Assembly (NCBI RefSeq): GCF_007747445.1
Contig: NZ_CP036425.1
Location: 2,650,175 to 2,714,174, forward strand
From: Poriferisphaera corsica
GTDB taxonomy: Bacteria; Planctomycetota; Phycisphaerae; Phycisphaerales; Phycisphaeraceae
Direction of reading: 5' to 3'
DNA length: 64,000 nt
Each line of letters begins with the position of its first letter. Position 1 is the first letter of the stretch. The position numbers and the translations under genes are program-made. Shown here in pieces: positions 31,219 through 34,546 of the stretch. The notes under the pieces are model-generated. The model was not told the origin of the DNA. It was given only the letters and a program-made list of their open reading frames with translations, and did no database searches.

Positions 31219-32295
31219 TTATACTGCCGCTTCTTGCTGCGACACACCAAACGAAACCACTTCACGCAAATACTCATATGCTGTCATTTCATTATGATCT
31301 GGCTCAATACAGATTTGACTATTTACATGCGTTACGTATTCTTCAAACATTCTTTTCACACCATACACTTCTTGCTGAGTCATACCATAGGTTGTTCCAA
31401 AAATCTGTGCTTTCGTTACACCTTTACCAAATAGTGTACGCAGATTATCTGGATGATAGGCAAACCCTAAAAATATAATCCTCTCAGCCTGAAGCATTTC
31501 ACTTCTCAAATTATCAACAAATGTCTCATCTTCATTTTTATCACCAATAATACGAATTCCATTACATGCACTTTGCAACCGGCTCACTTCTATATGATCG
31601 TTATAGGGCCAAACTCCGCTTGGGCCAACCACATCTGCAGTATGTAACCCTAAACAGCCATGCACATGTCTTATTCGAGAGGCTATAAGCGTATCTACAC
31701 CACTTTTGTTATTGCAGTAATTCATAATAACTTTACTGAAATACTGCTCTAATGACCTATCATAATTAAATGTTACAAAAAGTGGGCATTGACTTTCCAT
31801 AAAATATTTTACACTTTTTGCGCCCCCTAAATACCCTTGCATCTGCGACCAAATATATTTGTATACACTTGGACCCACATAGCTACTGTGTTCTTTATTT
31901 TGAAATTTTTGCCTCAAAAATAAATCCACCTCTTGTTCTGCCTTAATTAGTATGTGCGAAATTGCCGTCTTGCCAAGATCTTTAAAATGCTTGTTATTTC
32001 GCAAAAATGAATCTATTGAGTTGGTATCTGAATAATATATTCTTTCTCGAAATCGCTGAATTTCTTGATAATCAAAGCATAAAACTAGCAAAGCATCAAT
32101 TAAGCAATTCATTTCCAATTCAATATCATCATCACTTCTCCAATGCGACTTTACCCATTTGCCTTCGTGTAATTTGTATTCATATTCACTCTTCGCAAGT
32201 TCCTCACAAATATTATCCACCAACTCTGCCCCACTCGGAAACCCATACTGCATTGAAACACCAGCACCAAGTACAAAAACAGTCTTCTTTTGCAT
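31219..32295 (-). CDS. Solitary SIR2-like domain protein, candidate defence effector
   Basis: About 358 aa. The NAD-binding signature VFVLGAGVSMQYGFPSG is at residues 6-22. Further SIR2-like elements are PLFVTFNYDRSLEQYF, RHVHGCLG (catalytic-type His) and RIIFLGFAYHPDN. It lacks the zinc cysteines of protein deacetylases, so it belongs to the SIR2-like NADase group found in anti-phage systems. It is markedly AT-rich against the C-rich flanking genes, which suggests recent acquisition. The start at 32295 has AGGG 8 nt upstream; further in-frame starts lie at 32301 and 32310. No TIR, Argonaute or helicase partner gene is adjacent. Confidence 0.75.
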   Translation of the reverse strand: MQKKTVFVLGAGVSMQYGFPSGAELVDNICEELAKSEYEYKLHEGKWVKSHWRSDDDIELEMNCLIDALLVLCFDYQEIQRFRERIYYSDTNSIDSFLRNNKHFKDLGKTAISHILIKAEQEVDLFLRQKFQNKEHSSYVGPSVYKYIWSQMQGYLGGAKSVKYFMESQCPLFVTFNYDRSLEQYFSKVIMNYCNNKSGVDTLIASRIRHVHGCLGLHTADVVGPSGVWPYNDHIEVSRLQSACNGIRIIGDKNEDETFVDNLRSEMLQAERIIFLGFAYHPDNLRTLFGKGVTKAQIFGTTYGMTQQEVYGVKRMFEEYVTHVNSQICIEPDHNEMTAYEYLREVVSFGVSQQEAAV

Positions 32296-32406
32296 GTTCA
32301 TTGCCCTCATAAGATAAAAGAACAACTCAATTTTACTTGAGTTGCTCCATCTCACAAGCGCTTTTATATTCTCAACCACAACCTCACCACCCAGCACTTT
32401 CTAGCA

Positions 32407-33267
32407 CTAGCCACTAGCACTAGCACTCTCAAGTCCGGGGGCCACCCAAACCCCAAACGGCGCATAAACATCCTCTCCATCAATCCGCACCTGCACATAC
32501 AACCTCAAATACCCAGCCTCCTCCGGCTGCAAATGAAACTTCAACATCGGCCCGCCCCGCTCACCAATACTCTTCGGCTCCTCCCCCATCGGATGCGTAT
32601 GCGCAATCGTCTCATAATCCCCATAAAAACCCATCATATGTGCAAACGCGCCCATCACTGGCTCTAACTCGCGCATAGCCCCACCATCTCGACTCACATC
32701 CACCTCAGCCATCACTTCCTTCCCCTCAACCACCGGCCCATCAAACTTTAACTTAAACGTATACCCATCCACCTCCACTTCATGATTCACATACTCATCA
32801 ATCGCAACATTACAATCCAAACCACTTGCAAGCTCCTCTTGAATAAATCGCTGCCCACCATCTATCGGCTTCACATCCACCCACATCCGGTACCCACAAT
32901 CACTCTCAGGCGTAAACTTAAATCCATACTTCCCATCGCCCAGATACTCCGGGTGAACATGATGATAATCACTATAATTCGGATCAAGCAGCATCACATG
33001 TACCGGCTGCTCGTGCACCACCTCAAACTCACCCACATCCATCGGCTTCCCTTCTCCATCGGTCAACGTAAACACCACATCATTCAACTGATCTGGTATC
33101 AAACGCATCCCATCCCTCGTCTTAACGATAACCTCTCCACCCCCCTCCTTCTCTACCATCCCATGACCCGCATGCCCTTCTATCCCCACAGTACCTTCCT
33201 GCCCATACACCCCAACACCCAAAAACATACCAACTAACCACGCAATAGATACAAGTGTCTTTTCCAT
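32407..33267 (-). CDS. Exported His-rich protein of the metal-resistance-associated (YtkA-like) type
   Basis: 286 aa with a signal peptide (residues 5-22). The short histidine motif GHAGHG (31-36) is followed by two beta-sandwich-like halves. The first has EQPVHVMLLDPNYSDYHHVHPE and the second GAFAHMMGFYGDYETIAHTHP, the pattern seen in exported proteins encoded beside copper and heavy-metal efflux systems. No efflux gene adjoins it here. Metal binding is inference from the paired His motifs. Its stop lies about 110 nt from the SIR2-like start on the same strand. Confidence 0.65.
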   Translation of the reverse strand: MEKTLVSIAWLVGMFLGVGVYGQEGTVGIEGHAGHGMVEKEGGGEVIVKTRDGMRLIPDQLNDVVFTLTDGEGKPMDVGEFEVVHEQPVHVMLLDPNYSDYHHVHPEYLGDGKYGFKFTPESDCGYRMWVDVKPIDGGQRFIQEELASGLDCNVAIDEYVNHEVEVDGYTFKLKFDGPVVEGKEVMAEVDVSRDGGAMRELEPVMGAFAHMMGFYGDYETIAHTHPMGEEPKSIGERGGPMLKFHLQPEEAGYLRLYVQVRIDGEDVYAPFGVWVAPGLESASASG

Positions 33268-33734
33268 AGCACAATGCTATCCCGCATCGCCTCCCTGAAA
33301 CATTAATCAACCCTTAAGGTTTCCCCCAAACACACTCACCAATCCACGACCCTTTTGCGTCATCACTGACATGATTAACCATTAAACCCCTATTTTTTAA
33401 GCATTTCTTAATGCGCACCCACCAGACATCTTTCTCTCCTTACTTCTACACACTTCGTTTTCTATCTTTTGCCTATTACCTAAATTCACATCATTTGTGC
33501 TTGAGCCAACTCTTTTTCTCGATAAACTGCGGCCATGCTCAGCAACCGTAACCTGAGCATCACGATTCACGAGAGCAATACATTGACTTGCAGCAACAAA
33601 CCCCACAACTAACGAATCAAACGTTAGTAAACTCAAATCAAAAATTGAATTCAACACACAAAGCATCACAACCATGATGCCCACTTATCCCTCGCCGCTT
33701 GCCAAACGTTCAGCTCAATAGGAGATACAACATT
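33268..33734. other. Divergent intergenic region upstream of the LPMO gene
   Basis: AT-rich, about 470 nt, without a supportable gene. A 95-codon minus-strand frame at 33397-33684 lacks a ribosome site and family resemblance. GGAG at 33721-33724 serves the LPMO start. Confidence 0.5.
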
Positions 33735-34469
33735 ATGAAACTCTCACTCTGCATCACCACCGCACTAACACTCTTTGCAACCACCACCCTCGCCTTCGGC
33801 CACGGCTCAGCTATCGACCCAGCTTCGCGCGTTTGGCGCGTTCGTCAAAGCAACCCCGAACGCCCCAGCTTCCAACTCGCTCAAAACGCCGTCAATATGG
33901 ATGGCAAAAATGCCTATTACACATGGAATCAAGTCTCACAAAATATCTCAGCCGCTGTTCAAGCCGGCCTCCCCGAAGGCTTCGACTACTCACCTTGGGT
34001 GCCAGACGGCCAAATCGCCTCAGGCGGCAACCGTTCATACTCCGGCCTCGACCAAGTCTCTGACGAATGGCCAACCACACCCGCCACCGCAGGCGAAACC
34101 TTCTCCGTTGACTTCCACGCAACAGCCGTCCACGAACCCTCCGTCTTCGATGTCTGGATGACCACTGAAGACTGGGACCCCAACACTCAACTCAACTGGG
34201 ATCAAATGGAATTCCTCGGCCGAGCTGACACCACACTTCAAAACAACCACTACTACTTCGACGTTGACATCCCCGAAGACCGCTCCGGACACCACGTCCT
34301 CTGGATCGCATGGCAACGCAATGACCCCGTCGGCGAAGTCTTCTTCTCAACCTCCGATCTCATGATCGCACCATCCAACGTCCCTGAACCCGCATCCCTC
34401 GCCCTCTTCGGCGCCATCGGCATCCCCGCCCTACTCCGTCGTCGCCGTAAAGCAACCATACAAGCCTAA
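33735..34469 (+). CDS. AA10 lytic polysaccharide monooxygenase with PEP-CTERM tail
   Basis: 244 aa. Signal peptide 1-22 with a cut before His23, giving the N-terminal histidine needed for the copper histidine brace; it is followed by GSAIDPASRVWRV as in AA10 enzymes. The second brace histidine is His133 in TAVHEPSVFDVWMT. The C-terminal AA10 strand IPEDRSGHHVLWIAWQ and an axial aromatic in EVFFSTSDL (about 203) are present. Residues 216-238 form a PEP-CTERM sorting signal (VPEPA, hydrophobic helix, RRRRK) that exosortase would process. It oxidatively cleaves chitin or cellulose; substrate choice is not visible. GGAG lies upstream, a terminator downstream. Confidence 0.87.
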   Translation: MKLSLCITTALTLFATTTLAFGHGSAIDPASRVWRVRQSNPERPSFQLAQNAVNMDGKNAYYTWNQVSQNISAAVQAGLPEGFDYSPWVPDGQIASGGNRSYSGLDQVSDEWPTTPATAGETFSVDFHATAVHEPSVFDVWMTTEDWDPNTQLNWDQMEFLGRADTTLQNNHYYFDVDIPEDRSGHHVLWIAWQRNDPVGEVFFSTSDLMIAPSNVPEPASLALFGAIGIPALLRRRRKATIQA

Positions 34470-34519: not shown

Positions 34520-34546
34520 ACTGCGGCCATCTTGGCCGCAGTTTTT
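34520..34546 (+). terminator. Rho-independent terminator after the LPMO gene
   Basis: A perfect 9-bp stem (ACTGCGGCC at 34520-34528 with GGCCGCAGT at 34534-34542) is followed by a T run. Confidence 0.92.

Follow-up and report, generated by a model that had tools for sequence, protein, structure and literature searches.

What is an AA10 LPMO doing with a PEP-CTERM sorting signal at its C-terminus? The question arises in Poriferisphaera corsica, within a window of 64,000 nucleotides (the whole stretch of DNA analysed), where an earlier note made from the sequence singled out an intact open reading frame of 244 residues (33735-34469, + strand). Its coordinates and residues agree with those given in that note: the frame starts with an ATG at 33735, 10 nt downstream of a ribosome-binding-like AGGAG read at 33720..33724 (+), and its stop codon ends at 34469. 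The + strand encodes, in order, a predicted signal peptide (residues 1-22, 33735..33800), an AA10 (LPMO_10) catalytic domain (residues 23-212, 33801..34370), the end of a short linker (34371..34379) and a PEP-CTERM sorting signal (residues 216-239, 34380..34451). It is the only AA10 gene of the genome, a single contig of 4,291,168 bases. The protein is best read as an AA10 that enters an exosortase pathway, a design kept within one small clade of planctomycetes, and its processing would follow that of the families it resembles.

The identity of the catalytic domain is clear. PF03067 matches residues 23-209 far beyond chance (129 bits against a cut-off of 23, E 4.2e-37, profile positions 1-183 of 183). 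The histidine brace, which the earlier note had described as intact, has both residues in place, His23 (codon at 33801-33803, + strand) and His133 (34131-34133), and these are invariant across 54 aligned AA10 domains from the scan, as are the second-sphere residues Arg195, Glu201 and Phe203. An AlphaFold2 model, made solely from loci of the scan, has a mean pLDDT of 88.7, with values of 95-99 for the ten-residue blocks between 31 and 210. Its best structural match is Tma12 (6if7; Z 28.2, rmsd 1.4 over 179 residues, 37% identity), and CbpD (8c5n; Z 26.9) and ScLPMO10D (7zjb; Z 26.8, 32% identity) also lie close. The comparison with CBP21 (2bem) that had been proposed gave a Z of 21.6. As modelled, the protein has the AA10 fold, and by analogy with known families it is expected to bind copper. 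The mature domain contains no cysteine, and hence no disulphide braces the fold.

For the brace to form, His23 would have to become the first residue of the mature chain, as the earlier note had supposed. The N-terminus consists of a hydrophobic segment followed by an A-F-G/H site, with A-F-G at positions -3 to -1. The residues (A/S/G/V)-x-G immediately precede the histidine in all 13 tailed AA10 proteins, and the solved chains 6if7, 7zjb and 8c5n each begin with a histidine that aligns to His23. This family-wide pattern, together with the solved mature chains, points to signal cleavage before His23. Four untailed relatives (L038, L039, L040 and L042) have a proline directly before the copper-binding histidine, where an ordinary signal peptidase should not cut; these proteins are either processed in another way or have been assigned the wrong start.

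The C-terminal tail, a VPEPASLALFG...RRRRK sequence read previously as VPEPA, helix and RRRRK, bears out that description in a profile run. TIGR02595 matches residues 216-239 with 20.7 bits (cut-off 16), PF07589 at 19.6 bits just misses the Pfam cut-off of 20.7, and the tail was recovered at 25.0 bits in a PEP-CTERM scan of the whole genome. Over 15 residues, hydrophobicity in the mature protein peaks at 220-234, and RRRRK comes next. Between the last strand of the model (DSSP 201-212) and the tail, which begins with residue 216, there is almost no linker (about four residues, A212-N215). The sequence contains no LPXTG or LAETG motif with a long linker. Among the 12 tailed AA10s scanned (E <= 0.1), PF07589 matches 11 and TIGR02595 matches 10, and this recurrence in 12 further genomes means that the tail is not a product of chance.

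Sorting signals of this kind abound in the P. corsica genome, with at least 132 PEP-CTERM matches over the cut-off (132 of the 142 listed, with scores computed for 150 of the 194 candidates), and 2 of 14 control genomes also gave matches over it. All of the 60 P. corsica tails that were read end within about 10 residues of the basic cluster, as expected of true C-termini. A search of the genome for exosortases, which the earlier note had called for, found three homologues over the PF09721 cut-off, two of them with the conserved cysteine. In P0002 and P0003 the Cys, Arg and His at conserved positions are all present, and we take these residues to have active-site roles. The third, P0004 (L004:1441-2343, - strand), is without the conserved cysteine; it is probably not a working exosortase, judging from its sequence, and is perhaps a non-catalytic paralogue. 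P0002 adjoins a gene for a DUF3485 (EpsI-type) protein, while P0003 carries a DUF3485 fusion and follows an SLBB-domain gene; an exopolysaccharide gene setting such as this has been described for the PEP-CTERM/exosortase system (PMC1569441). None of the three genes is near the LPMO gene. With His23 placed first by the cleavage pattern and exosortase homologues in the genome, the interpretation in the earlier note is supported.

How widely is this architecture shared? An AA10 domain with a PEP-CTERM tail was found in 13 distinct genomes, two from Poriferisphaera and eleven of Pirellulales type. In the family sample AA10 occurs in 2 of 51 genomes, namely the two Poriferisphaera. In the class sample it occurs in 15 of 397, of which two are tailed (both Poriferisphaera), 12 are untailed and one is cut off. 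The phylum sample has AA10 in 12 of 392 genomes; of nine additional proteins, eight have no tail and the ninth cannot be read as far as its end. A scan of named genomes gave seven tailed proteins among the best 80 of 237 relatives, comprising the ortholog in ZRK32 (G359), which belongs to the same genus as P. corsica, and six of Pirellulales type (L023-L028). Nine of these 80 were left unjudged where the C-terminus ran off the contig or the frame was broken (L034, L048, L052, L055, L076, L081, L086, L090 and L098), and the remaining ones were untailed when their C-terminal ends were inspected by eye. Finally, in the order around one Pirellulaceae genome, AA10 was present in 8 of 396 genomes, three of them already counted in earlier samples; the start of a tail is seen in all eight and can be read to the end in seven. 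Two of the Pirellulales-type proteins, L026 (2793-3662) and L028 (4001-4831), place dockerin-like repeats between the AA10 domain and the PEP-CTERM tail, thereby combining modules that usually belong to different attachment systems. In two MAGs a premature stop or a shift of frame interrupts the AA10 gene (L048:991-1101 and L052:4001-4123), and these are either pseudogenes or sequencing errors.

Does the tail go together with the enzyme that should recognize it? An exosortase is present in 12 of the 13 genomes with a tailed AA10, the exception (L023) being a MAG, whereas only 3 of the 13 nearest untailed genomes in the same AA10 clade have one (Fisher p 0.001, without correction for shared descent). 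The result is the same when G693, in which the C-terminus of the AA10 (L109) is unreadable, is left out. Exosortases are also found in all 13 Phycisphaerales genomes whose AA10s have another architecture, and in G755. Set against all 26 untailed genomes (16 with an exosortase, G755 not counted) the contrast is weaker (p 0.06), again uncorrected for shared descent. An exosortase may thus be needed for the AA10 tail, but its presence in many untailed genomes indicates that it does not bring the tail with it.

The history of the gene was traced on a maximum-likelihood tree of 92 rows, from which near-duplicates had been left out, together with two truncated rows and any row that had unknown residues in the domain. 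The 13 tailed AA10s form one clade (95/90) that requires a single change of state, a count reached by none of 500 shuffles. Within this clade the Poriferisphaera proteins fall inside the Pirellulales set (93/83), although an AU test does not reject a tree in which the Pirellulales AA10s are a clade of their own (p 0.289), so that this nesting is not forced. The AA10 domain of P. corsica is about 69-73% identical to six Pirellulales-type domains and only 30-44% identical to AA10s of its own order. Own-order AA10s were considered as nearest kin and rejected (AU p 3e-5 against Poriferisphaera grouping with them), in a test that is confounded because the other AA10s of the order are themselves scattered on the tree. 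That only 2 of 51 genomes in the family have an AA10 speaks for lateral gain, and a move of the gene between Pirellulales and the lineage of Poriferisphaera is probable.

The tails of the two Poriferisphaera AA10s (VPEPASLALFG...) are like the other tails of their own hosts, whereas Pirellulaceae AA10 tails read VPEPGT or VPEPGS, then FAG..FC..RRRR, and are unlike them. Host tails were taken from 60 of the 142 own-genome matches, the strongest or clustered ones and not a random draw, and 59 entered the profile. Both Poriferisphaera AA10 tails favour the Poriferisphaera profile (by +3.1 and +7.6 bits) and 9 of 10 other AA10 tails favour the Pirellulaceae profile, the two profiles separating imperfectly (leave-one-out assignment correct for 64 of 74 and 15 of 21). 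A tail that matches those of the host and not those of the Pirellulaceae AA10s suggests that the tag is kept by selection, and there is moderate evidence, from sequence comparison, for the upkeep of a working, host-specific sorting signal. A cysteine stands late in the hydrophobic helix, immediately before the basic cluster, in all eight readable Pirellulaceae-type tails without dockerin repeats (L023, L024, L025, L027, L113, L114, L115 and L116) and in neither Poriferisphaera tail.

The remark in the earlier note that AA10 enzymes are mostly secreted free or fused to carbohydrate-binding modules needs correction in so far as cell-anchored AA10s have a precedent in ScLPMO10D and its subclade, which are anchored by sortase (PMC10067821). 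ScLPMO10D (CbpC of Streptomyces coelicolor, subclade A2) is, like the P. corsica protein, an AA10 of the nearest structural group; its C-terminal sorting signal likewise comprises a motif, a hydrophobic stretch and a basic tail, and it is cell-bound with C1 activity on chitin (PMC10067821). However, it relies on a Gram-positive sortase E, an LAETG motif and peptidoglycan as its anchor, and its linker is about 98 residues long (PMC10067821), whereas the P. corsica enzyme combines a PEP-CTERM/exosortase pairing and a Gram-negative-type envelope with a linker of about four residues. The novelty therefore lies in the probable use of an exosortase in place of a sortase and not in a new kind of enzyme. 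Tma12, from the fern Tectaria macrodonta, is the nearest solved AA10 by both sequence (E 6.6e-30) and fold, but is a plant protein with no PEP-CTERM-type tail in its solved chain of 183 residues. CbpD of Pseudomonas aeruginosa, an AA10 with an outlier YDWNGVN motif, differs in having GbpA2 and CBM73 domains and in being a type 2 secretion substrate (PMC9344471). The other Phycisphaerales AA10s share order and family with the P. corsica protein but are only 30-44% identical to it, carry dockerin-like repeats and CBM2-like modules (named by eye), are untailed in all 12 readable cases and lie far from it on the tree.

With the PEP-CTERM/exosortase (EpsH) system itself, the protein and its genome share the predicted signal peptide, the PEP motif, helix and basic end, and exosortases beside EPS-type genes. 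Fewer than 10% of PEP-CTERM proteins were reported to match any Pfam family (PMC1569441), whereas the P. corsica one is a defined redox enzyme. A survey of LPMOs notes GPI or LPXTG anchors with no mention of PEP-CTERM in its main text (PMC8615602), and a survey of planctomycetal AA10s discusses signal peptides and lipoprotein anchors, PEP-CTERM again being absent from the main text (PMC11131199). For P. corsica KS4, an aerobic, aggregate-forming isolate from a calcareous sponge (PMC10945688; PMC7783415), a table counts one auxiliary-activity family member and gives no description of it there (PMC7783415). No paper combining PEP-CTERM with an LPMO was found in the literature searched.

Which polysaccharide might such an enzyme attack? 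The protein contains the L2 motif Y62-T-W-N-Q-V as well as T130-A-V-H133, and motifs resembling these have been reported for the chitin-active CbpD and Tma12 (PMC9344471). The Arg-Glu-Phe combination is found in some chitin-active and also in cellulose-active AA10s (PMC11137697). Three GH18 genes lie elsewhere in the P. corsica genome, one of them with CBM2 domains. The likeness of the two motifs and the three GH18 genes suggest chitin as the likelier substrate. Against it count the absence of GH18 from both Pirellulaceae genomes tested and the sponge class from which KS4 came, which is said to lack chitin (PMC7783415). Chitin is therefore put forward as the probable substrate on grounds of sequence, and more weakly than the processing is. 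Tailed GH18 partners were considered and rejected, since none of the three genes has a PEP-CTERM match among the 142 listed for the genome.

Taken together, these data favour a secreted AA10 LPMO, probably acting on a crystalline, chitin-like polysaccharide, from which an exosortase removes the tail helix so that the enzyme becomes attached to the outer surface or exopolysaccharide, and we hold this reading with reasonable, though not strong, confidence. Sec would export the protein, and the signal peptidase cut would expose His23 for the copper brace while the tail helix is parked in the inner membrane. Exosortase would then cut near the PEP motif and transfer the enzyme to an acceptor, after which it would cross the outer membrane and attach to that membrane or to the exopolysaccharide of the producing cell. 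In the transferred gene, the tail would later have come to match the sorting signals of the new host. Processing by exosortase is expected from known families, and retention on the surface or matrix is suggested less firmly by the same analogy. The steps that follow recognition of the tail have been proposed for Nostoc and other systems, in which the acceptor and the route through the outer membrane are described as unsettled (PMC12188702; PMC11980579), and the destination of PEP-CTERM proteins is called unproven even where they have been studied (PMC12188702).

Alternatively, the tail could be a bare membrane anchor that tethers the enzyme to the inner membrane, facing the periplasm, with no part played by exosortase. 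A linker of just four or so residues would suit this arrangement, as would the suggestion that polysaccharides taken up by planctomycetes are broken down in the periplasm (PMC11131199). A bare anchor, however, needs no PEP motif, which is kept in all 13 tailed proteins, nor would it track the presence of exosortase within the AA10 clade or resemble the other PEP-CTERM tails of its host, and we regard it as quite unlikely. Exosortase might instead clip the tail and release the enzyme to the medium or to outer membrane vesicles, the tag serving for export or release. PEP-CTERM proteins are described as outer-membrane anchored or released and have been detected in the Nostoc exoproteome (PMC12188702), and KS4 has cells coated in outer membrane vesicles (PMC7783415). 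Exosortase-type enzymes are, on the other hand, thought to leave their substrates attached (PMC11980579), and KS4 forms aggregates (PMC7783415); neither point is decisive, and release appears unlikely.

The AA10 domain could also have ceased to cut and serve as a matrix adhesin or surface copper binder, in the manner of structural PEP-CTERM proteins. The PEP-CTERM proteins studied so far are credited with roles in floc and biofilm formation, and a mature domain without cysteines, and hence without a disulphide brace, could be read in the same sense. Yet the brace, Arg195, Glu201 and Phe203 are invariant in the 54 domains, and AlphaFold2 gives a confident model that lies near active AA10s in fold, which leaves this alternative highly improbable.

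The favoured reading, a surface-attached LPMO processed by exosortase, can be extended to a more speculative one. This lineage may have made a shared-good LPMO private: exosortase would tie the enzyme, by scarcely any linker, to the exopolysaccharide or outer membrane of the cell that makes it, oxidative cutting of crystalline chitin would be confined to the surface, and the tail would have been refitted to the exosortase of the new host on transfer between planctomycete classes. We offer this tentatively, considering it possible but not probable. If true, the private LPMO would be a Gram-negative counterpart, independently reached, of the sortase-anchored LPMOs of Streptomyces. The tailed AA10 also touches on the question whether polysaccharide degraders in the environment keep their oxidative enzymes to themselves or share them. 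Few of the numerous PEP-CTERM proteins lend themselves to a functional assay, and where exosortase products end up is still debated. An LPMO has an activity that can be measured, a fold already known and an N-terminal histidine that is diagnostic, and could therefore report on exosortase sorting in planctomycetes.

The genes adjoining that for the LPMO are housekeeping or unrelated (BacA, methionine synthase, a dehydrogenase and NAD kinase), so that the LPMO gene stands alone and a dedicated chitin gene cluster can be rejected. A terminator-like hairpin of 10 pairs followed by a T run (34520..34542, + strand) probably ends a single-gene unit, the pattern scan being suggestive only (four such sites found against 1.7 expected in shuffles). 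The same kind of scan found no sigma-70-like promoter site for the gene, and no Rfam match to a structured RNA lies near it. A plasmid origin was also rejected, as the 35 plasmid records that match are all below 60% identity and none is planctomycetal by name.

Divergent from the LPMO gene lies one for a secreted histidine-rich protein (32407-33267, - strand), which is retained at this place in ZRK32 with 46% identity. It is found beside an AA10 gene only in the two Poriferisphaera genomes (111 loci compared). The protein had no family match at the thresholds used, PADLOC giving only hits of E 0.02 and above, and no match to a solved structure (best E 0.7); its look of a metal handler had made it a candidate copper-chaperone partner, but in that role it was rejected and is not claimed as part of the system. 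Beyond it is a gene for a SIR2-like protein (31219-32397, - strand), with a PF13289 match that falls under the cut-off (E 0.0017) and weak PADLOC matches to ThsA and SIR2. Its GC content is 37%, compared with 48% in the window, and it is missing from the stretch of ZRK32 (L022) that separates the BacA gene from the His-rich one. It is perhaps a recent insertion, or has been lost in ZRK32, and is possibly a defence gene.
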